This document shows positions 1-63,316 of a DNA stretch of 64,000 nt, piece by piece. Position numbers and translations under genes: made by a program. Source of the stretch: a virus. A model generated the notes under the pieces. The model was given only the letters and a program-made list of their open reading frames with translations, was not told the origin of the DNA and searched no databases. Location of the stretch: positions 1 through 64,000 of the IMG/VR virus record IMGVR_UViG_3300046170_000322, one strand, 5' to 3'. Position 1 is the first letter of the stretch. The number at the start of each line of letters is the position of its first letter.

Positions 1-237
1 CGTTGAAAATAAGTAAAGGTAGCACGCTTGCCAATATAAGAATCTACATTCTTGAGCATTGTTTTAAGATCCTTGTACGAGTAGCCTTTGCCCGGAGGAC
101 AACCGAACACTACGCCGTCGTCATCTTGCATAATGAACTTGCCAAGCGTGCCAGTCCGTTTACCTTTACCAGTAACATAATCGATGATAGTAGCTTCGGT
201 GTCGCTGAAGTCTTTGAACTTCATTAGATCGTAAGAT
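1..237. repeat. Left copy of terminal direct repeat
   Basis: These bases recur at 63762-64000 in the same orientation. The two copies differ by one substitution (G here, A in the right copy, in the TAC[G/A]CCG context) and two single-base insertions of C in the right copy. The ligase frame is intact through this copy and broken in the other, so this one is probably the correct version. It marks circular closure of the assembly or a real terminal redundancy; the sequence alone cannot separate these. Confidence 0.9.
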
Positions 238-779
238 CTACCGTGCTTGTATATACCATCGCCATTTCTTATGATTGAACCTTCGTAGCCGAGTGATAAA
301 AACTCTTCGTGCTGAACTCTAGCGTAGTTGTAGCTATCGACTAGTAGTGCAGGGACGTGCTTGATTTGTGCATCGTAGAAACCTGCATTTGCAAGCAGTT
401 GCATGCGTGCTTGATAGCTATCATATACAACACCATCGAAGTAATCGTATACGTGAAACTGTACAAGATTTTTAGCTTCTAACCTGTCTTCGTCTGTAGG
501 CTTTTGCTTACGCACTAGTGATATAATCTTTTCGAAATCATCTTTTAGTTCATGATTATAAAGCTCGCCATCGAGTATTACATCTGGTTGCTCAGCAAAG
601 AAAGGCTTGAGCGCTTTTTCAATGTGATCAATATTCATAAATCTCTTGTTGTTGCGCGAGAACGCGCCGTACTTTGTAAACACACAGCGCACGCCATCTA
701 GCTTTGCTTGTATATACACTGGTCTTGTAAAGTCGACTCTTGATCGGTCGAACTTATGGGCTAACATTGGTTGTATCAT
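1..779 (-). CDS. ATP-dependent DNA ligase, N-terminal 259 residues (continues at 63762 across the junction)
   Basis: This enzyme seals nicks during phage replication and recombination. Read on the minus strand from ATG 777-779, residues 26-31 are KLDGVR, the nucleotidyl-transfer motif with Lys26 as the AMP acceptor. FHVYDYF, EGSIIRN and LMKFKDF follow as motifs III, IV and V. The frame runs off base 1 and resumes at 63762 to a stop at 63704-63706, giving about 278 residues. T7 ligase has 359, so this is a compact form with almost no N-terminal extension. ATG lies five bases past a GATAATAA promoter element (784-818). The family call is firm; the exact length depends on joining the ends. Confidence 0.93.
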   Translation of the reverse strand, partial: MIQPMLAHKFDRSRVDFTRPVYIQAKLDGVRCVFTKYGAFSRNNKRFMNIDHIEKALKPFFAEQPDVILDGELYNHELKDDFEKIISLVRKQKPTDEDRLEAKNLVQFHVYDYFDGVVYDSYQARMQLLANAGFYDAQIKHVPALLVDSYNYARVQHEEFLSLGYEGSIIRNGDGIYKHGRSYDLMKFKDFSDTEATIIDYVTGKGKRTGTLGKFIMQDDDGVVFGCPPGKGYSYKDLKTMLKNVDSYIGKRATFTYFQ

Positions 780-783
780 ATTA

Positions 784-818
784 TTATTATCTTTCTTGTT
801 TCGTATTTGTTTTGTATT
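784..818 (-). promoter_or_regulatory. Bipartite leftward promoter element, copy 1 (ligase)
   Basis: Minus strand: a TACAAAACAAATACGA block, exactly nine bases, then GATAATAA. The GATAAT hexamer ends six bases before the ligase ATG, so transcription could start at the ATG itself. The block lies inside the last codons of the upstream gene and encodes its YKTNTKQ tail. Confidence 0.75.
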
Positions 819-1239
819 TTTTTAACACTGCATCTGGCTTACCTACAAATATAACAGTTCTAGTAGAAACTTTATATATAGACATATAAGTGTCGTGATC
901 TGCTTTAGGGTATAAAGTATATATATACTCAGCCCAACCGATCTCGTTGTCTATTGCTTGTAGATACATTTGACCTGCTCGATCTTTGAACTTAGCTATG
1001 AACTGGGCTGCAAAGCAACCTGCTCCATTAGCTATCTCATTAAGATTTTTATTATTACCTAAGCCATTAATGATCTTTATATCTTTCAACCACTCTGCAT
1101 ACTCAACAGCCATATACTCTGGATAACCATCGTACTGTTGGTATATGTTTACTAGCGCTAACTCGGCTCTAGTATGACCTTCACTGTAAGACAAACCTTC
1201 TTGTCTTGGTATTATTCTTGTTAAACTTCTTGTACCCAT
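787..1239 (-). CDS. Conserved phage protein starting MGTRSLTR
   Basis: 150 residues. The MGTRSLTRI start and the YQQYDGYPEYMAVEYAEWL stretch are recognisable from a family common in marine phages, of unknown function. No catalytic motif is visible. Its last codons (YKTNTKQER) are also the promoter for ligase. It overlaps the upstream deaminase as TAATG, implying translational coupling. The protein at 3481-3933 begins with a similar TRSxTR and ends with the same YKTNT. Confidence 0.8.
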   Translation of the reverse strand: MGTRSLTRIIPRQEGLSYSEGHTRAELALVNIYQQYDGYPEYMAVEYAEWLKDIKIINGLGNNKNLNEIANGAGCFAAQFIAKFKDRAGQMYLQAIDNEIGWAEYIYTLYPKADHDTYMSIYKVSTRTVIFVGKPDAVLKKYKTNTKQER

Positions 1240-1649
1240 TATATTTTAATTATTTTTATTCCTGATTCTTTCATAAGATCTAGCCCTTCGGTTGATCCTT
1301 CATAAACTTCTTTGTATACTACCTTGACTATGCCTGCTTGTATTATTAGCTTACTGCAATCTCTACAAGGAGACAACGTGCAGTACAATGTAGATCCGCT
1401 TGAGCTATTAGTAGACTTAGCTACTTTAACTATAGCGTTAGACTCTGCGTGTAGTACAGACCATTTTGTCTTGTTATCTTCTTCACAAGTATTACAGAAG
1501 CCAGAAGGCGTACCGTTATAACCAAAGGATAATATATTATTATCTTTAACTATAATGGCACCAACCTTCTTTCTACTGCATTTACTTAGCTGGCTAACTT
1601 CACCAGCTATGTTCATATACACTATGTCAAGTTCTTTGATATTAGGCAT
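1239..1649 (-). CDS. Deoxycytidylate (dCMP) deaminase
   Basis: This enzyme deaminates dCMP to dUMP in the pyrimidine deoxynucleotide pool. The zinc-dependent deaminase signature is present: His67-Ala-Glu69 and, after SPC, Cys95 and Cys98 (PCRDC). At 136 residues it is a usual size for ComEB/T4 Cd-type enzymes. CSRKKVGAIIV and GYNGTPSGFCNTC match the family's N-terminal part. It overlaps its neighbours on both sides. The phage also carries a dCMP hydroxymethylase-like enzyme (56237-56878), so dCMP appears to be a branch point. Confidence 0.93.
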   Translation of the reverse strand: MPNIKELDIVYMNIAGEVSQLSKCSRKKVGAIIVKDNNILSFGYNGTPSGFCNTCEEDNKTKWSVLHAESNAIVKVAKSTNSSSGSTLYCTLSPCRDCSKLIIQAGIVKVVYKEVYEGSTEGLDLMKESGIKIIKI

Positions 1650-2106
1650 CTACTACTACGTCGTTTTGAAGTATCCAACCTTGATCTAGTAGTTCATCTT
1701 GCATTTCTTCTACTTTGTCTTCGAAGTAATGCTCATATGTTTCATTGATAGAATCTATAAATACATAGCTTTCAGTTTCTAACTCTGAGAAAAATATATT
1801 AGCACCGTCTTTAATACAGTTAGGTAGCTCTTCTAGCCAACTGTTTTCGTAGTAGTATACATTTTCACATATACTAACATCGTTAGGCTTGCCATATGTA
1901 GCCACGTATACTTCGTAGCTGTCGGCTGTTGATTCCATATAGAACCATCTGTTACAGCGGTCGTCCCAGTCGCCTGTTATGCTAGCGTCCCAGTGATCTA
2001 ATACTTTAGCTAATTGTTCTTCATGATCTGTGTCGTATGGTTGCTTGATACCTTTTTCTTCAAGCTTTTCCCATAGTATTTCTTCTGTTATAATTTTGTT
2101 TGACAT
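1642..2106 (-). CDS. Hypothetical acidic protein
   Basis: 154 residues, strongly acidic, rich in Trp and Tyr, with no recognised motif. It overlaps the deaminase gene by eight bases and is the first gene behind promoter copy 2. The GATAAT hexamer ends six bases before its ATG. Function unknown. Confidence 0.75.
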   Translation of the reverse strand: MSNKIITEEILWEKLEEKGIKQPYDTDHEEQLAKVLDHWDASITGDWDDRCNRWFYMESTADSYEVYVATYGKPNDVSICENVYYYENSWLEELPNCIKDGANIFFSELETESYVFIDSINETYEHYFEDKVEEMQDELLDQGWILQNDVVVDA

Positions 2107-2110
2107 ATTA

Positions 2111-2145
2111 TTATTATCTTACTTGTTTCGTATTTTATTTGTAAA
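2111..2145 (-). promoter_or_regulatory. Bipartite leftward promoter element, copy 2
   Basis: Minus strand: TTTACAAATAAAATACGA, nine bases, GATAATAA, then AATATG with the ATG at 2104-2106. It has the same spacing as the other copies and fills the gap between two genes. Confidence 0.72.
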
Positions 2146-2385
2146 TTAATCTAGTAGCACCATATATGCTTCAGGATTAGCTTTTCTAAACCAATCACAG
2201 CCTTTTTGAACTATGCTCCAGTTTTTAGTCATGTTTGCACCCATAATTAGATCGTACATAGCAGCTTCATCTGCGCTGCAGTCGTAACTCTCGCCTGAGA
2301 ACGGGTTAGTGATCGTTTCACCTTCAGAGTATTTGATACCATCAAACCACTTTGGTAGTTCTACTTTTTCTTTTGTTTTGCTCAT
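2146..2385 (-). CDS. Conserved small phage protein (WFRKANP type)
   Basis: 79 residues. The core FSGESYDCSADEAAMYDLIMGA followed by a WFRKANPEAYMVLLD end resembles a small protein common in cyanophages and other marine phages, of unknown role. It overlaps the upstream gene by four bases (ATGA). Confidence 0.78.
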   Translation of the reverse strand: MSKTKEKVELPKWFDGIKYSEGETITNPFSGESYDCSADEAAMYDLIMGANMTKNWSIVQKGCDWFRKANPEAYMVLLD

Positions 2386-2645
2386 AATGTTTCTATTGTT
2401 AAATCGTTATCTTCTAAGAATAAATTACCACCCCACCTGATATCATACACGTCAGTTTCATACATATCTATGCTACCGAATAGGTATATAGAATAAATAG
2501 TTGACATTTTAAGGTCTTGGTATAATACTACTTCATCTAGCTCTTTGTAGATAAGGTCGATAGAGAAATCATACTCTGTTTTGTTTTTGTCTAATACTGC
2601 TTTGATTTCCGGCTTTAGCCTGTGTAATAATGTAATTCTTTTCAT
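2382..2645 (-). CDS. Hypothetical protein
   Basis: 87 residues, mixed helix/strand composition, no motif recognised. It is the first gene behind promoter copy 3, with a 22-base A/T-rich gap between the element and the ATG, unlike the leaderless-like copies. Confidence 0.65.
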   Translation of the reverse strand: MKRITLLHRLKPEIKAVLDKNKTEYDFSIDLIYKELDEVVLYQDLKMSTIYSIYLFGSIDMYETDVYDIRWGGNLFLEDNDLTIETL

Positions 2646-2667
2646 ATATTTTTATTTAATTTTATAC

Positions 2668-2702
2668 TTAATATCCTACTGTCATCGTATTTGTTTTGTA
2701 AA
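2668..2702 (-). promoter_or_regulatory. Bipartite leftward promoter element, copy 3
   Basis: Minus strand: TTTACAAAACAAATACGA, nine bases, GATATTAA. The GATATT differs by one base from the usual GATAAT. It sits directly downstream of the tRNA-like element at 2706-2823. Confidence 0.7.
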
Positions 2703-2705
2703 TTG

Positions 2706-2823
2706 TAGGCGCGGCAGGAATCGAACCTGCCTACTATAGCTTTATTACTTATCCGCGTAGCTTCATTGCCTGCTGGTCGGGTGTCATCACTGTAACAGAT
2801 AAGTTTAAAATCCACTTGCGCCT
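2706..2823 (-). other. tRNA-like element (T-arm plus distant acceptor complement)
   Basis: On the minus strand the 3' end has a good T-arm (GCAGG, TTCGATT, CCTGC) followed by CGCGCCT and A. A matching 5' AGGCGC lies 118 bases upstream. AAGT/ACTT could form a D-like stem. The element is about 45 bases too long for a tRNA, no normal anticodon arm is convincing, and it overlaps the 3' part of an interrupted small gene. It could be a degenerate tRNA or chance. Confidence 0.3.
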
Positions 2824-2941
2824 ATGTACCCAGTCATTTGCTACCTTTGTTTTTGAAACAATTCCAGAGGAAGGAACGCTTGCCTTGATTTGCTTCAAAG
2901 TGATCTGGTTACAATCTTTTTTTCAAGCTATGTGAGTCCAT
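2749..2941 (-). pseudogene. Small protein of about 63 residues, frame broken by one extra base
   Basis: From ATG 2939-2941 the frame reads MDSHSLKK, breaks in a run of seven A, and resumes to a TAA at 2749-2751, ending in MTPDQQAMKLRG. Removing one A gives a continuous 63-residue basic protein. No family recognised. More C-ending codons than its neighbours. The break is probably a sequencing insertion, as in nearby genes. Confidence 0.45.
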
Positions 2942-3009
2942 GTGAAACACTGTGCTACTTGCTACTGAGATCACCACCGCGGTTTGTTATTTATTCGCTG
3001 GGTGTGTCT

Positions 3010-3168
3010 TTAGCTTATTAAGCTTTGTAGTTTTTCTACAGATAGCTTAATTAGCTCTTGTCTTTTTTCGTGTTGTAGATCATCCATCTGCCAATCCACC
3101 GTGTCTAGTAGCAGCTCGTGCATGTGTATAGCAACGCCGCTAGCAATATCTTCAATTTTCTTCTGCAT
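3010..3168 (-). CDS. Small helical protein, 52 residues
   Basis: Reads MQKKIEDIASGVAIHMHELL and ends in LQSLIS. Mostly amphipathic helix by composition. It starts inside the 3' end of the preceding gene, typical of tightly packed phage operons. Function unknown. Confidence 0.6.
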   Translation of the reverse strand: MQKKIEDIASGVAIHMHELLLDTVDWQMDDLQHEKRQELIKLSVEKLQSLIS

Positions 3169-3292
3169 CTCTTTCTTCTCTGATTAATAATTCTTCAATT
3201 TCGCACCATAGCATATCATCTATTTGATCTTTGCTGTAGTGTTCTTTTAATTTTGTGTAGGCTAATTCCCACGGTGACATAATTCTACTCAT
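3152..3292 (-). CDS. Small acidic protein, 46 residues
   Basis: Reads MSRIMSPWELAYTKLKEHYS with an acidic tail REERDAEEN. It overlaps both neighbours by 8-17 bases. Function unknown. Confidence 0.6.
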   Translation of the reverse strand: MSRIMSPWELAYTKLKEHYSKDQIDDMLWCEIEELLIREERDAEEN

Positions 3293-3473
3293 AATCGTAC
3301 TGTACTATTGGTTTTTCTGTTATCATATACTCTATAGACATCAATCTATGTCCTGCTTCTTCTATGAAGTCTGTTATTCTACCCATAGATGTGTCATAGT
3401 TATATCTGTAGCAACATCCATCGTCGAAGTCAAGTACAAATATGTAAGTCTTTTTATTAAATATATTTTTCAT
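3285..3473 (-). CDS. Small hypothetical protein, 62 residues
   Basis: Starts MKNIFNKKTYIFVLDFDDGC. Tyr- and Asp-rich, with no motif. First gene behind promoter copy 4; six bases separate the GATAAT hexamer from the ATG. Confidence 0.65.
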   Translation of the reverse strand: MKNIFNKKTYIFVLDFDDGCCYRYNYDTSMGRITDFIEEAGHRLMSIEYMITEKPIVQYDYE

Positions 3474-3477
3474 GTTA

Positions 3478-3512
3478 TTATTATCGATTGCTATTCGTAT
3501 TTGTTTTGTAAT
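3478..3512 (-). promoter_or_regulatory. Bipartite leftward promoter element, copy 4
   Basis: Minus strand: ATTACAAAACAAATACGA, nine bases, GATAATAATAAC and ATG. The block forms the last codons (RNYKTNTNSNR) of the upstream gene at 3481-3933. Confidence 0.74.
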
Positions 3513-3933
3513 TTCTAAGGTAGAACTCTAACATATACTTCATACGTGCGAGTGGACTTAGTATTAGCTCACGCTCCCAGCACATAGATCTTCTAGTACT
3601 AAGATCACCATTGCTGTTCATTACAGTCCACCTAGTTTCTTTCAGGTATTTCTTGTTTAGTTGATACCATCTACTCGTAGGAGATACTTTTCTTACATAA
3701 CCTGATTTGTAGCAAGCAATGCGTTGACCTGTTGGCATAAGAAATGATCTTGTACCATTGTTACGCTGCCGAGTTGTAGTTATTTCTTGTATACCATATA
3801 CTATTTCCATTGACTTTGCGAAAGCATCTTCTACCTTGTGGCGATCTTCGAATTTTACGTTATTGTAGTTATACATAAGTGTTACCGTTGATTGTGTACC
3901 ATTGAGAGTACGAGTTATACTTCTTGTCTGCAT
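3481..3933 (-). CDS. Hypothetical protein, MQTRSITR start
   Basis: 150 residues, basic, no recognised domain. The MQTRSITR start resembles the MGTRSLTR start of the 787-1239 protein; the rest is not clearly alike. The C-terminal YKTNT is encoded by promoter copy 4. Its start lies inside the end of the upstream small gene. Confidence 0.68.
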   Translation of the reverse strand: MQTRSITRTLNGTQSTVTLMYNYNNVKFEDRHKVEDAFAKSMEIVYGIQEITTTRQRNNGTRSFLMPTGQRIACYKSGYVRKVSPTSRWYQLNKKYLKETRWTVMNSNGDLSTRRSMCWERELILSPLARMKYMLEFYLRNYKTNTNSNR

Positions 3934-4048
3934 AAAAGTAAGTTGTGTTTACTTTGTTTAACACTCGTGGTTTTTGATCGGTGTAAGTAATTTGTATTTT
4001 ACTTGGTACTCCGAAGTCGTTTAATTCTAATGTTTTAATTTTGTTCAT
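3869..4048 (-). CDS. Small hypothetical protein, 59 residues
   Basis: Starts MNKIKTLELNDFGVPSKIQI. An upstream ATG at 4078 is in frame but lies inside the preceding gene, so the 4048 start is preferred. The overlap with the 3481-3933 gene is 65 bases, longer than usual, so one of the two starts may be wrong. Confidence 0.5.
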   Translation of the reverse strand: MNKIKTLELNDFGVPSKIQITYTDQKPRVLNKVNTTYFYADKKYNSYSQWYTINGNTYV

Positions 4049-4065
4049 ATAGTGTATTTTATTTA

Positions 4066-4285
4066 TTATCTTAAGCATGTTCCATAGCCTTTGCGCCTTG
4101 CAGCTTTATTAATACTATCCGCTTGTGACTTTGGCATGAACTGAAAGTTATTACCTGTTTTGTGATTAGTGATCGGTACTGCGCCATAAGGTTCAGTTGT
4201 ACTACACTTGACACAAGTTTTGTATGATAGTTTTATTCTTACTGGGTGATATTGGCCCGCCGCATTTGCAAATTTGTATATTCAT
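4066..4285 (-). pseudogene. Zinc-ribbon protein, about 72 residues, broken by one extra base
   Basis: The N-terminus reads MNIQICKCGG; after the GGCGGGCC stretch the frame shifts and continues through YKTCVKCSTTEPYGAV to KGYGTCLR and TAA. Dropping one G restores a single protein with a CxC...CVKC metal-binding pattern. It begins right behind promoter copy 5. Likely a sequencing insertion in a G run; a real frameshift cannot be excluded. Confidence 0.6.
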
Positions 4286-4289
4286 GTTA

Positions 4290-4324
4290 TTATTATCTTA
4301 TAGTGTTCGTATTTGTATTGTAAA
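4290..4324 (-). promoter_or_regulatory. Bipartite leftward promoter element, copy 5
   Basis: Minus strand: TTTACAATACAAATACGA, nine bases, GATAATAATAAC, ATG. Six bases lie between the hexamer and the ATG of the zinc-ribbon gene. Confidence 0.72.
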
Positions 4325-4326
4325 TT

Positions 4327-4513
4327 CTAATACATTTCTCTTATCCACGATGGCATTTCACTTGATGATGCGATCTCTACACGATCATCATAGAATTTTA
4401 AATACTCTTCTTCTTTTACTACGATCGATTGACCTGTTTCTTTGACATGCACTACATCAAATATTGATGCGTGGAAAAAATTCTGGTGCTACTCTTTTAC
4501 TTTTGCTCTTCAT
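4327..4513 (-). pseudogene. Small protein of about 61 residues, broken by one extra base
   Basis: MKSKSKRVAPE then a run of six T; with five T the frame continues as FFHASIFDVVHV to WIREMY and TAG. The span is a multiple of three plus one. No family recognised. Confidence 0.5.
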
Positions 4514-4631
4514 ATTTAAATTTTATTTTTTCTATTTCGTTGTTAACTCTTCTTACAATACTTGTTTCTCCAGCGTCATTTGCTTGTTCTCTTAGGGTTT
4601 CAAGTGCCCATATTAGTAGTGATTTATCCAT
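4497..4631 (-). CDS. Small helical protein, 44 residues
   Basis: Reads MDKSLLIWALETLREQANDA and ends KFKYEEQK. Likely all helix. Intact frame; overlaps both neighbouring interrupted genes. Function unknown. Confidence 0.58.
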   Translation of the reverse strand: MDKSLLIWALETLREQANDAGETSIVRRVNNEIEKIKFKYEEQK

Positions 4632-4888
4632 ATATTCTATCTTCTTCAGCTATTGAAAACTTAATTGACTCACCTGACACTGCTCTATGACCTGCATATA
4701 CTGTATGCTTCTGTCAACTCTTCTACTTTATCTATCAATTCATGTTTACTATAACCTGATCCACTTGGTATATTCATATAGAAACTTGTTTGACCTTGCT
4801 CAGCACATTGCTTTGCCATGTAGATAGTTGCATCTACTTTTGTTTTAAAATTCTTATCCATTGCTTTTTTACTTACTACTATTTTCAT
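4624..4888 (-). pseudogene. Hypothetical protein of about 87 residues, broken by one extra base
   Basis: MKIVVSKKAMDKNFKTKVDA runs through KVEELT, then the frame shifts near ACAGAAGCAT and continues as VYAGHRAVSGESIKFSIA to DRIYG and TAA. Length is a multiple of three plus one. No family recognised. Confidence 0.5.
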
Positions 4889-5048
4889 TTTCTTTTTCTT
4901 CTATTATATACATGTTAGTTAATTCTAGTATTGATGGTATTGCGATCACCGCAAAGATATAACCCATCGCTGGTTCTTCGACTAAGAAGCAACCTACTGA
5001 CTCGATCGATCCTACTATTGCTAGTACTTTTAATATTGATTTCTTCAT
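4869..5048 (-). CDS. Small membrane protein, 59 residues
   Basis: Starts MKKSILKVLAIVGSIESVGC and has a second hydrophobic stretch, GYIFAVIAIPSILEL, so two membrane segments are likely, with a charged C-terminal tail. Function unknown. Confidence 0.6.
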   Translation of the reverse strand: MKKSILKVLAIVGSIESVGCFLVEEPAMGYIFAVIAIPSILELTNMYIIEEKENENSSK

Positions 5049-5050
5049 GG

Positions 5051-5167
5051 TTATCTTGTTATTATAGTGTACATTGCGAATACGATCGCTGTTATTATTG
5101 ATAGTGTGACAAATCGCTGCGTGTATAGCATTGCTTTACTTATTTTCGTATGTGAATGTTTCTTCAT
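5051..5167 (-). CDS. Small membrane protein, 38 residues
   Basis: A basic N-terminus (MKKHSHTKISK) precedes one hydrophobic segment, FVTLSIITAIVFAMYTII. Single-pass membrane peptide of unknown role, next to another membrane protein gene. Confidence 0.5.
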   Translation of the reverse strand: MKKHSHTKISKAMLYTQRFVTLSIITAIVFAMYTIITR

Positions 5168-5169
5168 AA

Positions 5170-5323
5170 TTATCCTTTACCTACTGTTTTGATTGATGTT
5201 ATATTACCTTTTTCGTTATGGTACGCTTTGATTATATCAAGTGCTACCAGTTTCTTCGTTACGCTTATACATTAGTTTGTATGGATAAGCTACTTTGTTC
5301 CAGTGTGGTATTCTTCTATTCAT
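5170..5323 (-). pseudogene. Small protein of about 50 residues, broken by one extra base
   Basis: MNRRIPHWNKVAYPYKLMYK runs to NEE, then the frame shifts in GAAGAAACTGG and continues as LVALDIIKAYHNEKGNITS to TVGKG and TAA. Multiple of three plus one. Behind promoter copy 6. Confidence 0.5.
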
Positions 5324-5332
5324 ATTGTATTA

Positions 5333-5367
5333 TTATTATCTTACTTTATTCGTATTTGTTTTGTATT
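5333..5367 (-). promoter_or_regulatory. Bipartite leftward promoter element, copy 6
   Basis: Minus strand: AATACAAAACAAATACGA, nine bases, GATAATAA. It overlaps the last codons (NTKQIRIK) of the 5341-5484 gene; the ATG follows 11 bases after the hexamer. Confidence 0.7.
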
Positions 5368-5484
5368 TCTAGCTTTGTTTATTAACTCTTGTACTTGCTC
5401 GCGAGTTAGTTCACCCGCCATTTGCTTCAGTATTACTTGAGTGAAATCGATCGTTTCTTCACCGTTATTTAATATTACTTGCAT
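5341..5484 (-). CDS. Small acidic protein, 47 residues, with strong Shine-Dalgarno
   Basis: Reads MQVILNNGEETIDFTQVILK and ends NTKQIRIK, the tail being promoter copy 6. It is preceded by AAGGAGGCGATCAC and ATG, an unusually strong ribosome-binding site for this genome, which supports this start. Confidence 0.65.
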   Translation of the reverse strand: MQVILNNGEETIDFTQVILKQMAGELTREQVQELINKARNTKQIRIK

Positions 5485-5706
5485 GTGATCGCCTCCTTTA
5501 ACTTTACATTGTTAATATGAGTGATACCTACTCGTGACCAAGTGAACATTTTGGTAGCTTCATCTAGTATCTGCCATGCTTCATCTGAAGAGAATGCGAG
5601 TACAGTATAGTCATCGAAGTCAATGTCACCGTAACTCGGTACGAAGCGCAGTACCTTGAAAGTAATACCTGTTTTTTCCTGTAGTGTTTTTTAAATTTCT
5701 ATTCAT
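5475..5706 (-). pseudogene. Hypothetical protein of about 76 residues, broken by one extra base
   Basis: MNRNLK then a run of six A; with five A the frame continues TLQEKTGITFKVLRF, SYGDIDFDDYTVLAFSS, to KLKEAITCK and TAA. Multiple of three plus one. No family recognised. Confidence 0.52.
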
Positions 5707-5731
5707 AATATTTTTATATTTTAATTGTTAG

Positions 5732-5852
5732 TAGTTATGGTGAGAATCGAACTCACATTTAAGTGCCAACATAACTGGTTTCTGTTCAACTTTATTTATA
5801 GTGTAGAGAACACATTTCAACGCACACTTTAGTTTACTCACACTATATAACT
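5732..5852 (-). other. Second tRNA-like element
   Basis: Minus strand: the 3' end has GTGAG, TTCGATT, CTCAC, then CATAACT and A; AGTTATA lies 121 bases upstream and pairs at six of seven positions. As in the first element there is an A-C mismatch next to the T-arm, a TAGT/ACTA D-like stem, and about 45 extra bases in place of a normal anticodon domain. No anticodon can be assigned with confidence. Confidence 0.33.
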
Positions 5853-6080
5853 TCTGCGTTACGTAGTGGAGTTGGAACAGATGTGCTAGAAGTATAGCTT
5901 TTGTACTTTTCCCAGCAGTTCATTGCTTCGAGTTTATCTTTCATTACTTCGAACGCTTTGTCGTGATTGTAAGTCGAATGTTTTACCATTTTTGAACTCG
6001 ACTTTGATTACAGTGTTTTTACCGATTAGTGATTTTCTGATTACGAATCTTTTGCTAGTGATTGAATTTTGATTTTGCAT
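5843..6080 (-). pseudogene. Hypothetical protein of about 78 residues, broken by one extra base
   Basis: MQNQNSITSKRFVIRKSLIG runs to KNGK, breaks in GGTAAAACATT, and with one A removed continues HSTYNHDKAFEVMKDKLEA to LRNAEVI and TAG. Multiple of three plus one. The stop overlaps the 5' end of the tRNA-like element. Confidence 0.52.
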
Positions 6081-6128
6081 AAGTTATTTTATTTTATTAG
6101 TTATTATTAAGTTATTTATTTTGTATTA

Positions 6129-6163
6129 GTATTATCTAGTTTGTATCGTATTTTGTTTGTAAA
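6129..6163 (-). promoter_or_regulatory. Bipartite leftward promoter element, copy 7
   Basis: Minus strand: TTTACAAACAAAATACGA, nine bases, GATAATAC. About 50 bases of A/T-rich leader separate it from the ATG at 6080. Confidence 0.7.
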
Positions 6164-6237
6164 AGTATGTACTTTGTTTTGTTATTGTTTTGTTGTAGTA
6201 TGTATTACTCTCACTCTCAATCTATTTATTTACATTT

Positions 6238-6272
6238 ATATTATCGAAAGTGTATCGTATTTACTTTGTAAT
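6238..6272 (-). promoter_or_regulatory. Bipartite leftward promoter element, copy 8
   Basis: Minus strand: ATTACAAAGTAAATACGA, nine bases, GATAATAT. Followed by ATG-TAA, a start directly followed by a stop, so it drives no obvious protein; 6164-6232 holds nothing else I can recognise. Confidence 0.68.
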
Positions 6273-6285
6273 ATCTTTTTGACTA

Positions 6286-6423
6286 CTAACAGCCTCGAGA
6301 GAATATTACTTCTGTGCCATCTGCGTATCGTCGTAGTCGATCGAAGCTTTGAGTGTTATCATTCCAGCGTAGTATTGTTTCAAATTCTTTATTCATATTG
6401 TTATTAGTTAAGTTGTTATTCAT
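6286..6423 (-). CDS. Small protein, 45 residues, MNNN start
   Basis: Reads MNNNLTNNNMNKEFETILRW and ends VIFSRGC. Behind promoter copy 9, four bases after the hexamer. Its first codons match those of the mini-ORF behind copy 10, indicating a tandem duplication of promoter and start. Confidence 0.55.
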   Translation of the reverse strand: MNNNLTNNNMNKEFETILRWNDNTQSFDRLRRYADGTEVIFSRGC

Positions 6424-6425
6424 AT

Positions 6426-6460
6426 GTATTATCTTTAATGGTTCGTATTTACTTTGTATA
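6426..6460 (-). promoter_or_regulatory. Bipartite leftward promoter element, copy 9
   Basis: Minus strand: TATACAAAGTAAATACGA, nine bases, GATAATACAT, ATG. Confidence 0.7.
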
Positions 6461-6471
6461 TTCTATTGTTG

Positions 6472-6495
6472 TTATTGTTTGTAGTTGTTATTCAT
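6472..6495 (-). other. Seven-residue mini-ORF (possible leader peptide)
   Basis: MNNNYKQ and stop, four bases after promoter copy 10. It may be a leader or simply the remnant of a duplicated promoter-start unit; see 6286-6423. Confidence 0.3.
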
Positions 6496-6497
6496 AA

Positions 6498-6532
6498 GTA
6501 TTATCTATATAGTCTCGTATTAAGTATGTAAA
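6498..6532 (-). promoter_or_regulatory. Bipartite leftward promoter element, copy 10 (outermost)
   Basis: Minus strand: TTTACATACTTAATACGA, nine bases, GATAATACTT, ATG. It is the most upstream copy, at the edge of the divergent control region. Confidence 0.66.
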
Positions 6533-6843
6533 GTGCTATACATGTATTGTATATAGTAATATGTGAAATGTTCTATAGAATTATATTATATGTAAGAGTA
6601 GTTGTGTAGGTAATCGTATAGGAAAACGCCATAAAATTATCTGGAACGAATATAAATAGGGTGGGGCTGGTAATAAAAAAAGGTTTTTACTTTTATAAGT
6701 GGGCGGCGAGGTGTATAGTAGTAACACAAAACCCCTATATATCTAACGTGCCAAAAAAGATGACATTAGCCTATAAGAGTATATAAGTAACAGCCTATTG
6801 TCACCCTTTTTAAATAGTAACACTTACATGTGATTATTCTAAC
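6533..6843. promoter_or_regulatory. Divergent control region without genes
   Basis: About 310 bases separating the leftward and rightward units. It holds A/T-rich stretches, a G-rich patch (TAGGGTGGGGCTGG) and three copies of AGTAACA (6720, 6786, 6816) leading up to the first rightward gene. No bipartite element faces right. A rightward promoter is expected here, but I cannot name its boxes. No tRNA or recognisable origin repeat was seen. Confidence 0.5.
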
Positions 6844-7457: not shown

Positions 7458-9050
7458 ATGGAATATAATTTACCAAGTCAGATAGTCAAGAATTTAGATT
7501 TTGGCACTGACGCAAAAACGAAAGTTATAAGTGGAGTTGAGAAACTAGCTAAGGCAGTTAAATCAACATTAGGCGCTTCAGGAAAATGTGTCATCTACGA
7601 AGATGGCATGGGTAAACCGGTGATCACAAAAGATGGTGTAACCGTTGCGGAAAGCGTAGTCTTACATGACCCGGTTGAAAACATAGGTGCCACACTTATT
7701 AAGGAAGCCTCTAAAAATACAGTGAAAGAAGCAGGTGACGGTACCACTACGGCTATCGTCCTTGCTGAAGCACTGATAAAAGAGGTTAATAAAGCAGCAT
7801 ACAAAGGAGCTACGATACGAGAGATTAAAAATGGCATCGACGTAGGCCTTGAACAAGCTACAGCAATATTGAAGAAGATGAGTGTTAGGGTCAAAAACTC
7901 TACATTAGATCACGTAAGCTCTATTAGCTGTAACAATGACAACCAACTTGGCAGCATAATAGCCAAGGCTTATAAAAAAGTTGGCAAAAATGGTGTGGTT
8001 TTGATGGAAGAGTCACAAACAGATGAAACATACGTTGACGTAGTCGATGGTGTACAAATAGAATCTGGGCTTACATCGCCATACTTCGCCACTAATACTG
8101 AGAAAAACAGGTGTGAACTTGAAAATCCGGTCATTTTGATCGTTTCAAGCAAGATACCTAACCTTAGGAAAATACAAAGCGTGCTAGAGTACGTTATAAA
8201 AACTAAAAAACCACTACTTATTGTAGCAGAAGTTGACCAGCAAGTAAAATCGGCACTTCTAATGAATAAAGTAAAGGGTAATATCAACGTAAACATCATA
8301 GATCCTCCAGGTTTTGGGCCAACGCGTAAAGAAACCATAGATGATCTAGCTATTTTAACAGGTGCAGAGGTTATAAATGAAGAATTAGGTGATGATTTAG
8401 ACCTAATACAGCCAGATTCGCTTGGTCAAGCCAAGTTTGTGGTAACAGACAGCAAGAATACTGTTATAACTACGCTACCGATTGACGAAAGTTTAGCTGG
8501 TAGAATAAAAGAAGTTAAAGAACAGATTAAAACTGAGAAAAATGGCTACATAAAGCGCAAACTAGAGCAAAGATTAGCTATGCTATCAGGTTCTGTTGGT
8601 GTTATACGTGTAGGTGCAAACTCAAAAGTTGAGTTGAAAGAGAAAAAAGACAGGGTGGAGGATGCAATATATGCAGTCAAGGCGGCTCTGCAAGAAGGCA
8701 TAGTACCTGGTGGAGGCGTAGCCCTGATGGACACGGCTTCTGAGCTTGAAAATATTCATGCAAACCTAGAAATGAGTGACAACGCTGGCTTACAAATATT
8801 TTGCAACGCTATAAGAGCACCATATGCTACAATACTAGATAATGCTGGTATAGAAGTAGAGGAAAAAGGTGGTATTGGTATTGGTTGCAATGTAATAACT
8901 GGTAAAAATGTTAATATGATTGATAATGGCATCGTAGATCCATTATTAGTAACTAAGACAGCGCTTAAAAATGCAGTGAGTGTTGTTTCAACTATAATTT
9001 CTGCAGATTGTGTAATATCTAATATAAGAGTACCAAATGCAAGCAGTTAG
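7458..9050 (+). CDS. groL: Phage-encoded chaperonin GroEL (Hsp60)
   Basis: 530 residues, near the bacterial length of about 548. It forms the ATP-driven folding chamber, probably for phage structural proteins. Family marks: VITKDGVTVA, GDGTTTA at residues 93-99 (ATP site), KDRVEDAIYAVKAALQEGI with the catalytic-Asp region, PGGGVAL, and MIDNGIVDP. The flexible GGM-repeat tail of bacterial GroEL is missing; the protein ends in PNASS. It is followed by a GroES gene eight bases downstream, as in bacteria. Chaperonins are known from some giant phages and from virioplankton but are uncommon. Confidence 0.96.
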   Translation: MEYNLPSQIVKNLDFGTDAKTKVISGVEKLAKAVKSTLGASGKCVIYEDGMGKPVITKDGVTVAESVVLHDPVENIGATLIKEASKNTVKEAGDGTTTAIVLAEALIKEVNKAAYKGATIREIKNGIDVGLEQATAILKKMSVRVKNSTLDHVSSISCNNDNQLGSIIAKAYKKVGKNGVVLMEESQTDETYVDVVDGVQIESGLTSPYFATNTEKNRCELENPVILIVSSKIPNLRKIQSVLEYVIKTKKPLLIVAEVDQQVKSALLMNKVKGNINVNIIDPPGFGPTRKETIDDLAILTGAEVINEELGDDLDLIQPDSLGQAKFVVTDSKNTVITTLPIDESLAGRIKEVKEQIKTEKNGYIKRKLEQRLAMLSGSVGVIRVGANSKVELKEKKDRVEDAIYAVKAALQEGIVPGGGVALMDTASELENIHANLEMSDNAGLQIFCNAIRAPYATILDNAGIEVEEKGGIGIGCNVITGKNVNMIDNGIVDPLLVTKTALKNAVSVVSTIISADCVISNIRVPNASS

Positions 9051-40928: not shown

Positions 40929-43900
40929 ATGTTTGAAACAGAAGACGGAGTATATGATTTAAGCGGATTTAGTGCAGAGCAATTTGTATCATTTTTTGAA
41001 AAATATCCAGAAGCTAAAGCAGTTAGCCAACCTGAAACTACTGATTATAGTCTTTATAGAGAAAAAGGAGCTATTAGGAAGCCCGAAGGCGTAGAGTTAG
41101 AAAAGGTAGAGAAAAAAGTAAGAGTTGACGCTGGTGGTTCTAGTTTAGGAACTCTAAGACCTAGAGTAAAAACTGTAGAAACGCTAAGCAAAGAATATAC
41201 AGCAGACATAGAGGTAGAGCTAGAAGATGGGTCTTCAATATATTTAACTCCGTCTGAAATGTTAGACGCTAATATTAATCCTAATTTAAAATCTAAAAAC
41301 AAAGAAATAAAAAATAAGTTTTTCTTGCCAGATGGATCTGTAAACAAAGAAACATTTAAACCTTACGAAAAAAAAGTATCGGTTAGTACTGCAGGTAGTA
41401 TTCAAGGACTTGAGTTTAATATTCCTGAAATAAAATCGGAGTTAGTTAAACCTTACAGTGAAAAATTAATATACAACAAAAACTTACTAAAAGAGCTCAA
41501 GCAAGAGGGGCATCTAAATAGGATACCAGAAGAGTATAGGTATTGGGAAGGTGAAGAGCCGCCAGAAGATTATGTTTTAGGATATACCGCGTATTCACAA
41601 AGTGAAATAGAGATATCAAAAGCAGCAGCGAGTGAGTATGATAAAGCTGTTGCAACGTTCACTAAAGAAGAGCAAGCAGCCACAAGAAAGCAGTCAGAGA
41701 TTGATAGAGCCAAAGCGCTAGAGTTTTTAGAAAGCGATAACATTAAAAGTATCGATGCTAGAATAGAATCTTACGAAAATGATCCTAGATATATACAAAA
41801 CTTAAATATAATAAATAAGAAAGAATATGGAGATGAGCTAAGCGCGTCTGAAATAGAAACTTATCAAAAAAATCTTATTGACTTAGGTACAGTTAGAACG
41901 AGTCTTTACGAAGATTACGAAAAAATGGGTGTGGCTATAGACGAGCTATCTAATGCAGACTTAAAATTAGATTTATTGAAAAGAGACTATAGCTTGTTGA
42001 ATAAAGTTGGTTTTCTTGCAGAGTCTACACTAGGCAATTTAAGTTTTGGGTTAGCTGAGTTTTTAGCCCAAACAGACAATATTCCTGGATCTAGTAACGT
42101 TATGGAGCAAATATCCATAAAGCGAAGAAAAGAACTAGACAAAGCTCGCGAAAAATATAGAGCCGATGTTGGCTTTGAAGAAGCTTTTAGTAGTTTAGAT
42201 AATTTTGGTAGATTTATTGCAGAAGAAGCAGGGAGACAATTACCTATATTTGCATTAATAGCAGCTTCAGGTGGCGCAGCCACTGCATTAGGCGCGAGTG
42301 AGCTAGGTGCGGCTATGGTTTCAGGTTTAAGTTTAGGATCTATGAGTGCTGGTCAACAAATTGGCGACATGAGTTACCAAGAGTTTCTCAGCAAGTACAA
42401 TGATATACAATCTTACGGAGTAAATTTAGAATTTAACGACAAAGAATATAGCGATTTAAATAAGTTTCTAACAGGCGTAGGTTTTGGAGCAGCTGAAGGT
42501 CTTCTAGGCGCGGCTCCTACGTTTTTGCTTGGATCAAGATTTTTCAAAAGTGGGCTTAATTTGTTCAGTGCTACAGAAAAGAAATTAGCCGAAAGAGTTG
42601 GCTCTAACGCTTTGCAAAGAGCTTTAAATTTTGGTAAGCCCATAGGCAAGGCTTTTGCTATAGGTACAGGAGAAGAAGCAATAACAGAAGGTTTAACTAC
42701 CCTCACTCAAAATATTATAACTAGAAACCCTAATATTTTTGAAGGAGTAGCGCATGCAACATTTTCTGGAGGATTTTTTGGTGGTATAATGGGTGGTGGT
42801 GCTGTATCTATGGGCGTAGCTATGAACGCATCTATGAACTCTAAAGAACGACTAGAGCTCCAAAACTTTTACGATCAAAGAGAAAAGATAAAGACAGAGT
42901 TACAGTACAAAGGTTTAAGTCCTGAGATTAAAAAACGCCTTGAAGCCTCTCTTGCTGATATAGATAAGAAAATAGATGATAAAACCATAGAAGTAGAAAA
43001 AATGTGGTTGTCTAAAATGAGTAGAAGAAACTTTGAGCAATATACTGAAGTGCTGGGCAAGCAAGCTGATCTAAAGCAACAGTATCTTGAAGTAACTAAT
43101 AAAAATTCTGGTCTTACAGAACAACAAAAGAAAGATAAGATTGCAGAGCTTAGCAAAGATTACCAAGCTAACCATGCAAGAATAGAAAAATTTAGAAACC
43201 CTCTTGATTACGCTAATAGATGGCACTTGTTAGAAACTATTGACAAAAAAAGATATGATAGAATAAGAACTCAAGCATCTCAGAAAATATTAAGCGAAGG
43301 ATTTGAAGCAACAGAAGCTAAAATAAAAAAAGAGGCTTATGACATATATTTACTAGAAGAAATAAAAGTTAATAATGAAAATGCTAAAAAAGCATTAAAA
43401 AATGTAGGTTTAACATTTGAAGCTTTTGAATTTAAAACTGAAAAAGAAGCTAAAGCTTTTGCCGTTAAAAAAGCAAAAGAAGAAGGTGTAGATCTTAGCA
43501 AAAATTCAAAAAATAAAAATAATTTTTGGTATGGTTTAGCTAATGCTGAAATAGGCGGGCTCAACGGTCAAGCTGGTCGCGTTGGAGATTCATACATGTA
43601 CGTAACAACAGAAGAAAATCAATTAAAAAATGAAAGAGAGGGTACGGCGACACACGAGGTTGGCCATTTGATTTTTTGGGATTGGATTGAAAAACAAGGT
43701 TTAAATATAGATTTAATAGCTAAAGAAATAACACAATTTCTTAAAGAAACAAATCCTAAGATCTACGCTGAAATGTTTGGCGATTTAAAGACTCAAAGAG
43801 TTGAAGTAAGTAAAAAGACTGGCGAATTTATACCTGAAGAAATAATAATGGGTTTTGTTGAGCGTATTGGCAGAATCAATAAAGACAAAAAGGTAACCAA

Positions 43901-46900
43901 AACCTTTATGTACAGATTAGGTGAACTATTCAACAAAGACGTTGGAGTGCCTACAGACTTGTCTACACAATCAGCTGTTGTTGATTTTATATCTAGCATG
44001 GCCGAAAAGATCAAAGACGGAACACTATCTAAATCAGATATAAAAGCCGCGGAAGCTAGCGAAGTTTTTAAAAGCTTGCTATCTAAAGATAAAGCAGCTA
44101 GCATAAAAGACATAGAAGCAAAGCCAGAAACTAAAAAATCTTCAAGTATATTAAATACTATAAATAATTTAGTACCAAAAGATGTAAAAACAAAAGCAGA
44201 ATTTCAAGGAGCTAAAATATTTAATCCAATATTTAATGCCACCCAACCTGGCGGTGCTATATACAATTACGTAAACTCTAGAGCATTGTCTAGAGAAGAA
44301 GCAGAAAAGATGATTGAAGGTGTAGTTGATAGATTAATAAACTACGATCCAGCAGCAGTTAGAAAAACTAAAAGTGGTGAACCAATTACTTTTGGTGAGT
44401 TTATATTTGCTAACACTAGGTTTAGTAAGCTAGATGCTAAGAAACAATTAGCTATAGAGTCTGAAAGACGAGCTGAAAGCTTAGATACTGAAGAAGCTAG
44501 ACAAGTTGCAGAACCTGTAGCTGAAACTACAACTACAGAAGCTCCAAGAGTTGAGTATAAAAACTTAGTAGAAAGTAATGTACTACCCGCGGAAATGGTA
44601 GCTAAAGTAAAAGACAAAATACTACTTATAACTAAAACACTTAAATCGCGCATCGATGCTGCAGTATCTATAAACAAGACTGTAACACCTTTAATGTCTG
44701 AGATTAAAAAAGAAATAGGCAAGCAAGCAGATATTGAGTTTAAGAAAATGCTAGGCGCTAAACGTGGTGGTGAACTTAGGAACAACTTCTTAAAACTTAA
44801 AAAACCTATACTTGAAAACATGACTACAACTTGGCTTATGCAAGGTATGCCTTTTGCTATTCAAAAGTCTGTTGATGGTAAGTTCACATCTGATTGGGAA
44901 GGTAAGAAAATAGATCGTGAAAGTGTTGGTACTGACAAAGCAGGTAGAACAGCTGGCGCACAATTGGTTAGAAGACTACCTAATGCTGCTAATAAAATTA
45001 CTGACGAACAATTCCTAGCTTACATGTTTAAAGGTGACGAGGTTATTAGAGGCAGAAAAGAAGCATTAGCTAAAGCACTAGCTGAAGAATACGCTTTTGA
45101 CGTCTATGGTCAAGAGCTTTTAAATCCAAATAGCGAAATAAGAAAAGCATTTGAAGAAAACCAAGAAAGAGTAGGCGCTGTTTTAGCAGATAATTTTGTT
45201 CAAGAATTCAATAAACAAGCGGAAAGAGGTAATGTAAAAAGATCTGTATCAAAACTATATGATGCTGCTAAGAATGATCCTACTATAGTAGACAATTTTA
45301 TTGAAGGAATAAATACTGAAACATTTATAAATAGATTAGTAGCTGAAGATGGAGATCTAGCAAGAGCAATAGTAGGCCATTTTGAAGAAAATGAAATACC
45401 AGGATTGACAAAAGGTAAACTAAAACAAATTGCTAACGAAATAAGCAGTAATGCTTTATTTAATAACTATCAGTTTCAAATACAAAGTAGGGATAAAAAT
45501 AGCGTAGCTATAGATCTGTCTCTAGATATCACTAGAGAAATAATGTCTCCTATAGAATATAAAGATATTTTTGCTCAAGCTGGTATTGAAAGAAAGTTTG
45601 ATCTTAAAAATATAGACCTTATCAATGAAACTAGATTAGCTTCTAAAAAGCTTTTCGATTTTTTAGGAGAAGATAAGTTTATAAGAGGTTGGTATGACGG
45701 TCTTCAAAAACCAGGAGGCTTAGCTGGGTTTTTAATGAAAAAACAACCTGATGGATTAATCTTAACATCTGAAAACGTAGAGTTAAGACCAAAAGGTAAA
45801 TCTAGTAGAAACGGTAATTTTGGCAACGTGGCTGACATGAATAACAGCTTAGGTATTGAATCGACTAAAGGCAAAAAAAGACCGGCGGATCAATCTAGAA
45901 AAAATTGGTACGTTAGTAAGAAATTCCTTGAACTTAGCGAGCAAGGAAAAATAGATAAGGTTTTAGATCTTTATAATGAAGGAGAAGTAGATAAAGCAAT
46001 ATTTTTAGAATCTTTAGAATTTTTAGCTAATTCGGTAGAAGATGGTAGTATATCGTTAGCAGCAGCTGAATTTTTAATAATAAGCCAGTTCGCCGACATG
46101 AGCGGAGTAGGAAAAGCAATGGCTGCGCCTAGATTTGTTCCGGTTAAAAGTGATGGAACAATAGCTACGGTTGAAGAGCTTGCTGAAATGGGATTAGCTT
46201 TTGACAAAGACAAACTAGTGCTTGAACACGTCATTACGGCTAAAACTATGGCGACCAATAGTGTAAAGTATCTTATTAATAAAGACGCTAATGTTTTAAA
46301 AGATATAAAAACACTTTTAAAAGATTATGACACAGCTATTTTGCCTGATAAATTAGATAAGATATTAAGAGAAAGAGGTACTCAAGAAAAAATGGGTATA
46401 GGTTATAAACCTGGAGATCCAATATTTGACGTTAGATATAAAGATCTAGGCATTATGTTCTTAGATGTTAAAACTGGAAATTTTGTAGGATCCTTGTTCT
46501 CTAAGACTAATCCAGAAGCTGCTAAGAAAAATAGCGACTTAGACAAAGCTTTAAATAACGCAACCAAAAGATCTTACTCTGAAAACCCTAAAGGTATAAG
46601 TGTATATGACTTTGATGACACGTTAGCGTTTAGCAAAAGTCAGATCATAGTTAAAAAAGATGGTAAGACATTTAAAATCAACCCAGCTGAGTTTGCTGCT
46701 CAAGGTGAGACACTACTAGCCGAAGGAGCTGAGTTTGACTTTAGTGAATTTAACAAAGTAGTAAAAGGTCAGCCAGGGCCATTGATTCCAAGAATACAAA
46801 AAGCAATAGATAAATTTGGTAACAAAAATATATTTATACTAACTGCTAGACCATCGGCTTCGGAAAGTGCTATACACGCGTTTATGAAAGGTTTAGGTAT

Positions 46901-59424: not shown

Positions 59425-59445
59425 AAATTTAATTTTTATTTTTAA

Positions 59446-59480
59446 TTATTATCTAAAGGTTATCGTATTTATTTTGTAAA
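59446..59480 (-). promoter_or_regulatory. Bipartite leftward promoter element, copy 11
   Basis: Minus strand: TTTACAAAATAAATACGA, nine bases, GATAATAATT, then about 20 A/T-rich bases to the ATG at 59424. It would drive the SSB and primase block. Confidence 0.74.
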
Positions 59481-60809: not shown

Positions 60810-61565
60810 TTAAAGATAATCAAGCACTTGCGAGTGATCTACATTATCAATTAGTTTCTCTACGGCTTGCCTTTTTAACTGCGAGACACGTACATAAGCG
60901 GACGTACCCTTTATGTCTAGTTGCTCTGCAATTTCTTTGGCACTGTGTTTATCACAGTCTAAACCATAGCTTAATCTGAGTACATTGTACTCTTTATCAT
61001 TTAGATGTTTCTTTAGCAAACCTATTAAGTACATATTGAGTAGATCCATATTGTACGGCTCTGACTCATCTGCTATTTGGTATGCCATATTTTCATCTTG
61101 ATTTGGCTTTGCATCGATACTTAAAAATATACTATTAAAAAACATCTCTACCATTTGCCTGTTCTTACCAAAGTCTTTTCGTATTTCATTAAGCTTGTGT
61201 TCTGGTATACGTATATTACCTCTGTTTATATCAACAGCTCTTCGTATTGCACCTTTTATTCGTTTGCTTAAAAAAGACTTTATAGTTTTTTCTATGTCAT
61301 CTGATTCACATAGCTTTGCCCAGTCGATCCTGTCAACAGCTGCTACTAAACCTACAGATCCTTCTTGTATAAGATCGTTAATGCTTAATACACCAGATGC
61401 TTGCTGAGATGTAGAAAACTTACGTGCTAGATTTTCTACCAAAGGCAAGAACTTTACTATAAGTTCATCTCTAGTTAGTAGCGCGTAATCTTTTTCATCG
61501 TCAGGCATAGATCTATTAAGATCTTGTTTGTACTTTATATAGTTACTTACGTTATAGCTCTTCAT
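60810..61565 (-). CDS. Sigma-70 family RNA polymerase sigma factor
   Basis: 251 residues. Region 2 spans about 37-112 (FLPLVENLARKFS, INDLIQEGSVGLVAAVDRID), a region 3 start is NIRIPEHKLNEIRK (118-130), and region 4 is 188-236 (LNDKEYNVLRLSYGL, SAKEIAEQLDIKGTSAYVRV). It would redirect host RNA polymerase. It is the best candidate reader of the twelve bipartite elements, or else of the late rightward unit, where no such element is found. Confidence 0.92.
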   Translation of the reverse strand: MKSYNVSNYIKYKQDLNRSMPDDEKDYALLTRDELIVKFLPLVENLARKFSTSQQASGVLSINDLIQEGSVGLVAAVDRIDWAKLCESDDIEKTIKSFLSKRIKGAIRRAVDINRGNIRIPEHKLNEIRKDFGKNRQMVEMFFNSIFLSIDAKPNQDENMAYQIADESEPYNMDLLNMYLIGLLKKHLNDKEYNVLRLSYGLDCDKHSAKEIAEQLDIKGTSAYVRVSQLKRQAVEKLIDNVDHSQVLDYL

Positions 61566-62172
61566 TTAATATTTGTTTTTCTTTTCTTAGTGTATCGCAC
61601 ATATGGCGATATATTGTTCTCTGTGTTACGTTTAGCAGTTCTGCTAACTTTTTAGTTGTTATCTTTTGGCTTGCATCGTTTATATCTAACATGCTTTGGT
61701 ATAACATTTCTTTGTTTAATCTGTTTCTACCAATTAGCTTACCTACAATACTTAGCTTTTGACTTAATGTTAAATGCCAAGCTGCAGGTTTAAATATAAC
61801 TTTACGCATTTTGTTTACCGGCGGTGTTGCGTGTGGTATACTAAATACATCTTTTATCATGCTATCTAAAACTTTTTGTTTTATAAAGAATGTAACGAAA
61901 CCATTTTCTTTGTTAGCTATGAATCTAAATATAGATTCCATAAACTCTTGTGTTTCGCCATCATTTAAAAACTGTAAAGTTAAAAAATGCCATTTTAAAG
62001 ACTTATATGTAGTAATCTTAGCTTTACTTGCAAACAATGTATAACATTGATACGTGCCACCTTCATAGTACATATACAGGTTTGTCTCCTTACTAGGTAG
62101 ATCTTCCCATGGCCAACAGCGTGTAATAACGCGTTTGTCATGTAACCAATTTATATTTCTATCATGTGACAT
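61552..62172 (-). CDS. Helix-turn-helix regulator or initiator
   Basis: 206 residues. The C-terminal 45 (KITTKKLAELLNVTQRTIYR then HMCDTLRKEK) form a clear HTH. The N-terminal 150 are unassigned, with many aromatic residues. It precedes the sigma factor gene with a 14-base overlap, suggesting early regulation; a replication-initiator role is possible. Confidence 0.7.
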   Translation of the reverse strand: MSHDRNINWLHDKRVITRCWPWEDLPSKETNLYMYYEGGTYQCYTLFASKAKITTYKSLKWHFLTLQFLNDGETQEFMESIFRFIANKENGFVTFFIKQKVLDSMIKDVFSIPHATPPVNKMRKVIFKPAAWHLTLSQKLSIVGKLIGRNRLNKEMLYQSMLDINDASQKITTKKLAELLNVTQRTIYRHMCDTLRKEKQILNEEL

Positions 62173-62223: not shown

Positions 62224-62358
62224 TTACTTTTTATTTTTATTATTTTGTTTTACTTGGTTTTCATATGCTGTTGCCTCAAGTGCTGCAATTAATCCATTTA
62301 TAAAATGGTTTAAGCCTTTAAGCAAGTTTTGTATAATTTTCTTCATAAATTGTTTCAT
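62224..62358 (-). CDS. Small protein, 44 residues
   Basis: MKQFMKKIIQNLLKGLNHFI with NGLIAALEATAYEN and a Lys/Asn tail. One amphipathic or membrane-associated helix. It overlaps the 3' end of the upstream gene by 41 bases. Function unknown. Confidence 0.55.
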   Translation of the reverse strand: MKQFMKKIIQNLLKGLNHFINGLIAALEATAYENQVKQNNKNKK

Positions 62359-62797: not shown

Positions 62798-63316
62798 ATA
62801 TCTGTTATCGATTGATCTTCGTATTTATTTTGTAAATGTGGTTTAACTTTTTTCCAATATTTAATTGTTGCTTTCTTTTCTGTCTCCGCGAGGACCGCCA
62901 TTCCATCTTCTTGCTACGATCTCTGCATACTCCATAAATGTAACTTACTCGCAGCATCTCCAATAATGCTCTGTTATAATACTAAATATTTGTATAGATT
63001 TAACTCTGCTTGTAACGATCTTGTAATGAGTACCTTACGTTTGACTTACGCTTACGTAGTATTCTATTAACTTCTCTTATACATATAGGTTGTATTTGTA
63101 AACAGCCTACAGCCTTTACCTCGATCACCGAATCGCAGAGTCGTTACCTCTACTTTCTACATAAATGATCTGCGTTGATTATATCTTCCCATGATGGCTT
63201 CGATCGTTACCGTTAACCTGCTCGTCTGCTGGAGCGGATCTGTGTATAGCATTGCTTACATTGCTCTTTGGCATAACTAAGCCAGTTACTATAGTTGCTA
63301 TTAATAATTTGTTCAT
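62794..63316 (-). pseudogene. Lytic transglycosylase (SLT type), interrupted by several extra bases
   Basis: The start MNKLLIATIVTGLVMPKSNV is a signal peptide. In shifting frames come PSWEDIINA, IIYVESRGNDSAI with the catalytic Glu, GDRGKAVGCLQIQP, REVNRIL, ITEHYW, ARRWNGGPRGDRK and KYWKKVKPHLQNKYE to a TGA. Each join needs one or two bases removed, about seven in 520 bases. The restored protein, near 170 residues, would cut peptidoglycan glycan strands. Sequencing insertions are the likely cause. Confidence 0.7.
62802..62836 (-). promoter_or_regulatory. Bipartite leftward promoter element, copy 12
   Basis: Minus strand: TTTACAAAATAAATACGA, nine bases, GATAACAGATAT, ATG. It lies inside the last codons (HLQNKYEDQSITDI) of the upstream transglycosylase gene. 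Confidence 0.72.

Follow-up and report, generated by a model that had tools for sequence, protein, structure and literature searches.

A family of predicted leftward three-box promoters in an uncultured marine phage, probably read by a phage-encoded sigma factor

Which polymerase reads a set of near-identical elements that all point leftward in a phage genome? The window analysed here, 64,000 nucleotides long (G000:C1:1-64000), is part of a 70,691-base virus record whose final ~6.8 kb (63765-70691, L001) is a diverged repeat of window positions 1-6800. Because the end of the record repeats its start, the genome is probably a circle of ~63.8 kb; the overlapping ends disagree in substitutions and frameshifts, as would result from joining two strains or reads left uncorrected. 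The plus strand carries structural genes (terminase, portal, crAss-type muzzle domain) and the minus strand replication and small genes (ribonucleotide reductase, thymidylate synthase, primase/helicase, exonuclease-like). The phage's terminase shares 63.5% identity with its counterpart in MW202828 and about 47% with those of the Flavobacterium elemo phages. It is matched by 87 records, among which the named organisms are nearly all phages of Flavobacteriaceae genera, so that the host is probably a marine flavobacterium. A GroEL-like chaperonin is encoded at 7458-9050 (+), and GroEL is also found in the relatives MW202828 and elemoF. Near the end of the structural arm, positions 40929-49265 (+) encode a 2778-aa protein of a family not recognised; the protein at the matching position in relatives has about 3700-3860 aa.

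The initial annotation described twelve leftward copies of two boxes followed, after exactly nine bases, by GATAATA. Searched as TTTACAAA-NN-AAATACGA-N9-GATAATA with up to 3 mismatches, the motif matches the window 12 times and only on the minus strand (Table 1), against a chance expectation of 0.00 in 100 dinucleotide shuffles, which bears out the set. Equal frequency on the plus strand would argue against it, and a scan of that strand of the window found no comparable site. The sites are as annotated, with every left end one higher than first given. Only 3 of the 12 copies are exact: AAATACGA is kept in 11 (copy 6499 carries TAATACGA instead) and GATAATA in 10. The nine-base gap is indeed invariant in 12/12 copies. 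The first box is looser than first written, with a core of ACAAA. The site at 59447..59480 also precedes the primase/helicase gene 57119-58822, and the HTH and sigma genes of Table 1 lie downstream of the site at 62803..62836 on the same strand. The site at 2669..2702 comes directly after a tRNA-like 3′ end; such ends (GGTTCGATTCCTGCC..., GTTCGATTCTCACC...) occur upstream of promoter sites at 2703-2730 and 5755-5800 (minus) in the window and near 4700 in a relative's locus (L207), and ARAGORN found no tRNA genes in the window. In the structural plus-strand arm, 6844-51603, these promoters are absent, and no promoter class was identified among its genes.

Table 1. Predicted promoters and the two candidate regulatory genes in the window; +1 positions are predictions
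Feature	Coordinates	Strand	Details
Promoter	785..818	-	-10 G at 791; +1 at 779, the A of the ATG of gene 3-779; leaderless
Promoter, exact copy	2112..2145	-	+1 at 2106, the A of the ATG of gene 1642-2106; leaderless
Promoter, GATATTA variant	2669..2702	-	+1 at 2663, upstream of gene 2382-2645
Promoter	3479..3512	-	+1 at 3473, the ATG of gene 3285-3473; leaderless
Promoter	4291..4324	-	+1 at 4285, the ATG of a small ORF; leaderless
Promoter	5334..5367	-	+1 at 5328; ATG 5 nt further downstream
Promoter, exact copy	6130..6163	-	+1 at 6124
Promoter	6239..6272	-	+1 G at 6233; overlapping ATGTAA not a start codon
Promoter	6427..6460	-	+1 G at 6421; in-frame ATG further downstream
Promoter	6499..6532	-	+1 G at 6493; first of the leftward arm
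Promoter, exact copy	59447..59480	-	+1 at 59441, upstream of gene 58934-59245
Promoter, GATAACA variant	62803..62836	-	+1 at 62797, the ATG of gene 62318-62797; leaderless
Phage sigma factor, 251 aa	60810..61565	-	sigma-70 family regions 2 and 4; proposed promoter reader
206-aa protein, C-terminal HTH	61552..62172	-	overlaps the sigma start; candidate reader of the -24 box

Whether the spacing is real was examined in 80 IMG/VR loci, retrieved solely through their sigma protein. In these, ATACGA and GATAA are separated by nine bases in 240 instances, nearly all on the strand of the sigma gene, compared with 0-7 instances for each other gap between 0 and 30. The commonest gap is four bases between ACAAA and ATACGA (198 instances) and 19 between ACAAA and GATAA (323). 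Since the loci were chosen without reference to the motif, they are unbiased evidence for a rigid three-box element. By its position, GATAAT is the putative -10 element (-12..-7), and (T)TACAAAnT, at about -37..-30, the putative -35 element at normal spacing, with 17 bp between CAAAnT and GATAAT; AATACGA would then be a third box, at -28..-22, within that 17-bp spacer. The initial annotation had held that the boxes do not fit sigma-70, which is geometrically mistaken: the gap of nine bases does not separate a -35 from a -10 element, and the repeated sites show -10 and -35 elements at sigma-type spacing with a purine +1 about 7 nt past the -10. Its companion claim, that they do not fit the Bacteroidota TAnnTTTG promoter, was correct, as GATAATA stands at the -12..-5 position; a scan of the window for the host-type TTG-N-TAnnTTTG gave only scattered, uninformative matches.

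The predicted start of transcription rests on 538 distinct sites, indexed from the G of GATAATA. Index 12 is where +1 should fall if GATAAT acts as a -10 element spanning -12..-7, and ~99% of the sites have a purine there, across every class of downstream sequence. Where no ATG overlaps, 239/243 sites have a purine there, compared with 66% at neighbouring positions (p about 3e-38, a value that overstates independence, the sites being partly related, although the pattern is present in every group). Of these 243 ATG-free sites, 62 have G at index 12, where about 9 would be expected, and none has C. Start codons respect the same point: 82/398 sites with a downstream ORF have theirs exactly at index 12 and 1 at index 13, start codons before index 12 are avoided, and 386/398 ORFs are able to start at or after it. 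At ~12/398 sites the only in-frame ATG of the ORF precedes the predicted +1, which counts against the model. An ATG at index 10 was rejected as a start codon, as most such sites read ATGTAA. We therefore place the predicted +1 at the index-12 purine, 7 nt past GATAAT. All 12 sites in the window have a purine there, and 5 of them an ATG. With AUG exactly at +1 in about a fifth of sites, leaderless mRNAs should be expected. While we infer promoter function from sequence, the initial proposal of a phage-specific promoter class is strongly supported by the fixed purine initiator, the start codons at +1, the one-strand bias and the rarity of the motif in Flavobacteriaceae genomes (see below).

A candidate reader is encoded in the same arm. 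The 251-aa sigma factor matches PF04542 (7e-6) and PF04545 (5e-6), both above cut-off, as is TIGR02937; searches of the PDB by sequence and by fold matched it to bacterial sigma factors, including a near full-length FliA alignment. Among motif-bearing virus records, 30/38 encode it, all 8 without it being fragments of less than 54 kb, and every record of at least 55 kb has it. The two sigma-less relatives examined, MW202828 and elemoF, have neither sigma nor motif, and nor does T7, used as a control. This co-occurrence could stem from shared ancestry within a single phage lineage, and residue-level covariation between sigma and motif was no stronger than for unrelated phage proteins (exonuclease, helicase and other controls). 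When seven sites were compared with their counterparts at the other, diverged contig end, neither the -10 nor the -24 box had changed, while the upstream flank differed by 24%.

The presence of the sigma factor in all long motif-bearing records, together with the absence of a T7-type polymerase, favours reading by the host core RNA polymerase with the phage sigma-70-family factor, which we consider likely. Observed directly are the motif with its spacing and strand bias, the initiator base, the placement of start codons and the joint occurrence with sigma; sigma binding, transcription and its timing are inferred. In this scheme, the phage would supply its own sigma, and the host core polymerase would then read the replication-side sites. 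Region 2 of sigma would melt and read GATAAT, region 4 would read (T)TACAAAnT, and transcription would begin at the purine 7 nt after GATAAT, with the AATACGA box contacted either by sigma itself, in some other region, or by an accessory protein. The set would constitute an orthogonal phage regulon covering the leftward arm of replication and small genes, switched on once sigma is made; it would be orthogonal because the promoter of the main host sigma, TTTG/TAnnTTTG, is of a very different sequence. The replication-side location would fit a middle or delayed-early class.

What the sigma factor leaves unexplained is the -24 box, with which, to our knowledge, standard sigma factors make no contact. 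We compared per-genome consensuses, in which GATAATA, having served as the search anchor, is constant. The -35 box varies by lineage (TACAAA, TGCAAA, CACAAA or CACGGACT; as per-genome consensus TTTACAAA, TTTGCAAA, CACAAA and CACGGACTT) at a fixed distance from GATAAT. The -24 box varies separately, as ATACGA, ACACGA or AAACGA, is a degenerate ATTAGA in L128 and is missing from L201. This independent drift suggests that the two boxes are separate contacts, and it weakens the idea of a direct repeat (TACAA/TACGA, 11 bp apart). Promoters of the relative L201 (G027), with CACGGACTT at -35 and no -24 box, offer a natural test of the pairing between box and protein.

An activator-dependent promoter, at which one or two phage DNA-binding proteins such as the HTH protein recruit the holoenzyme (with a host or a phage sigma) in the manner of MotA, would account for a box placed where sigma has no known contact. 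It would also suit two boxes that lie 10-11 bp apart on the same helix face and drift independently, and an HTH gene that overlaps the sigma gene and is conserved alongside it. However, that gene adjoins sigma in most relatives' loci, including loci without the -24 box, and is kept in L128 and L201 although the box there is degenerate or gone, so that the protein is not singled out as its reader. Covariation between motif columns and the HTH protein was not above that of control proteins, and a fold search with the HTH model gave no confident structural match. We regard dependence on such an activator as unlikely.

A host alternative sigma factor, whose promoter the phage merely copies, is very improbable. 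A few Bacteroidota chromosomes do carry the full element upstream of genes, but 397 Flavobacteriaceae genomes contain only 8 sites with up to 2 mismatches (2 for the reversed control), too few for a general host promoter, and an exact scan of 85,000 species genomes gave 15 hits, several of which fell on phage contigs that had been binned into MAGs. None of the sigma motifs reported for Flavobacterium psychrophilum, namely sigma-A variants, sigma-54, TAnnTTGY and an ECF CGT box, is this element (PMC9723704). Scarcely credible is a T7-type single-subunit phage RNA polymerase that would start at the G of GATAATA and leave a short leader: TACGA stands as far from a G as in the T7 promoter core, TAATACGA-N9-G, and copy 6499 reads TAATACGAGACTATATAG, but neither the complete 70.7-kb record nor any of 35 virus records contains PF00940 (T7 control positive at 1e-109), that model gives no reason for the purine and start-codon spike at index 12, and the TAATACGA core is not kept across relatives, where TACGA turns into CACGA or TTAGA or disappears although GATAATA and the -35 box persist. 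On these grounds we reject such promoters and take the T7 likeness for a coincidence.

The host copies have a setting of their own. In G074, G076 and G161, the full element, with two changes in one box of the G161 copy, lies just upstream of a gene for a small exported protein with a GLW/GYW motif; these proteins are only 20-29% identical and form a loosely related family. In G077, the element precedes a truncated copy of the exported-protein cassette, and G076 and G077 each contain repeats of the cassette, truncated at differing points. Bacteroidota chromosomal loci that combine the full phage-type promoter with a small exported-protein gene downstream are L221, L222, L226, L223, L227 and L234. 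That such genes are placed under the phage sigma promoter to sense phage and respond to infection is a doubtful reading given few genomes and weak homology; if true, it would describe a defence tripwire or a satellite hijack, and host copies that were real phage-responsive promoters would represent a new way of sensing infection.

The promoter-bearing phages form a large and widespread family, uncultured and marine, for which these sites provide a sequence-level regulon map that needed no transcriptomics and includes base-exact predicted +1 positions. The map also yields a sigma/promoter pair that may prove orthogonal in Bacteroidota, along with a three-box sigma promoter whose conserved spacer element is not explained by known sigma contacts. 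The literature searched yielded no account of this promoter. Phage sigma factors that have promoters of their own are a known kind, represented also by SPO1 and by T4 gp55; within the reach of our search, what is new is the arrangement in three boxes, the proportion of leaderless sites and the phage family concerned.

Several known systems resemble parts of this arrangement. T4 middle promoters, served by MotA/AsiA, combine an extra box near -30 with a -10 element, and MotA replaces the -35 contact. The sites described here likewise join an extra upstream box to a -10 element; unlike in T4, they still have a -35-like box and the phage encodes a sigma factor, and the candidate HTH gene is linked to the extra box by covariation no better than controls. 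FliA/WhiG (sigma-28) promoters read TAAA-N15-GCCGATAA. They share the GATAA core of the -10, and the phage sigma profile aligns to FliA over residues 29-241, but here no GCC precedes GATAA, the -35 box is another one and the -24 box is extra; with 47 bits against a TIGR02479 cut-off of 189.6, the phage sigma falls outside FliA/WhiG. As in phiEco32 and 7-11, structural and functional clusters lie on opposite strands and the phage encodes a sigma (PMC4331800). In those phages, the phage promoters of the functional cluster are used after host-type promoters, the promoter is a short 9-bp motif, tAATGTAtA, in contrast to three boxes at fixed spacing, and sigma promoters serve the structural cluster too (PMC4331800); in our window none was found in that cluster. 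The Bacteroidota sigma-A promoter, TTTG/TAnnTTTG (PMC6847099; PMC9723704), similarly has a box starting at -12 ahead of +1, with a different -10 sequence. Finally, the predicted leaderless share of 21% (82/398 sites) compares with 5.5% of F. psychrophilum mRNAs (PMC9723704), and such messages bear on how translation starts in Bacteroidota, which are without Shine-Dalgarno leaders.
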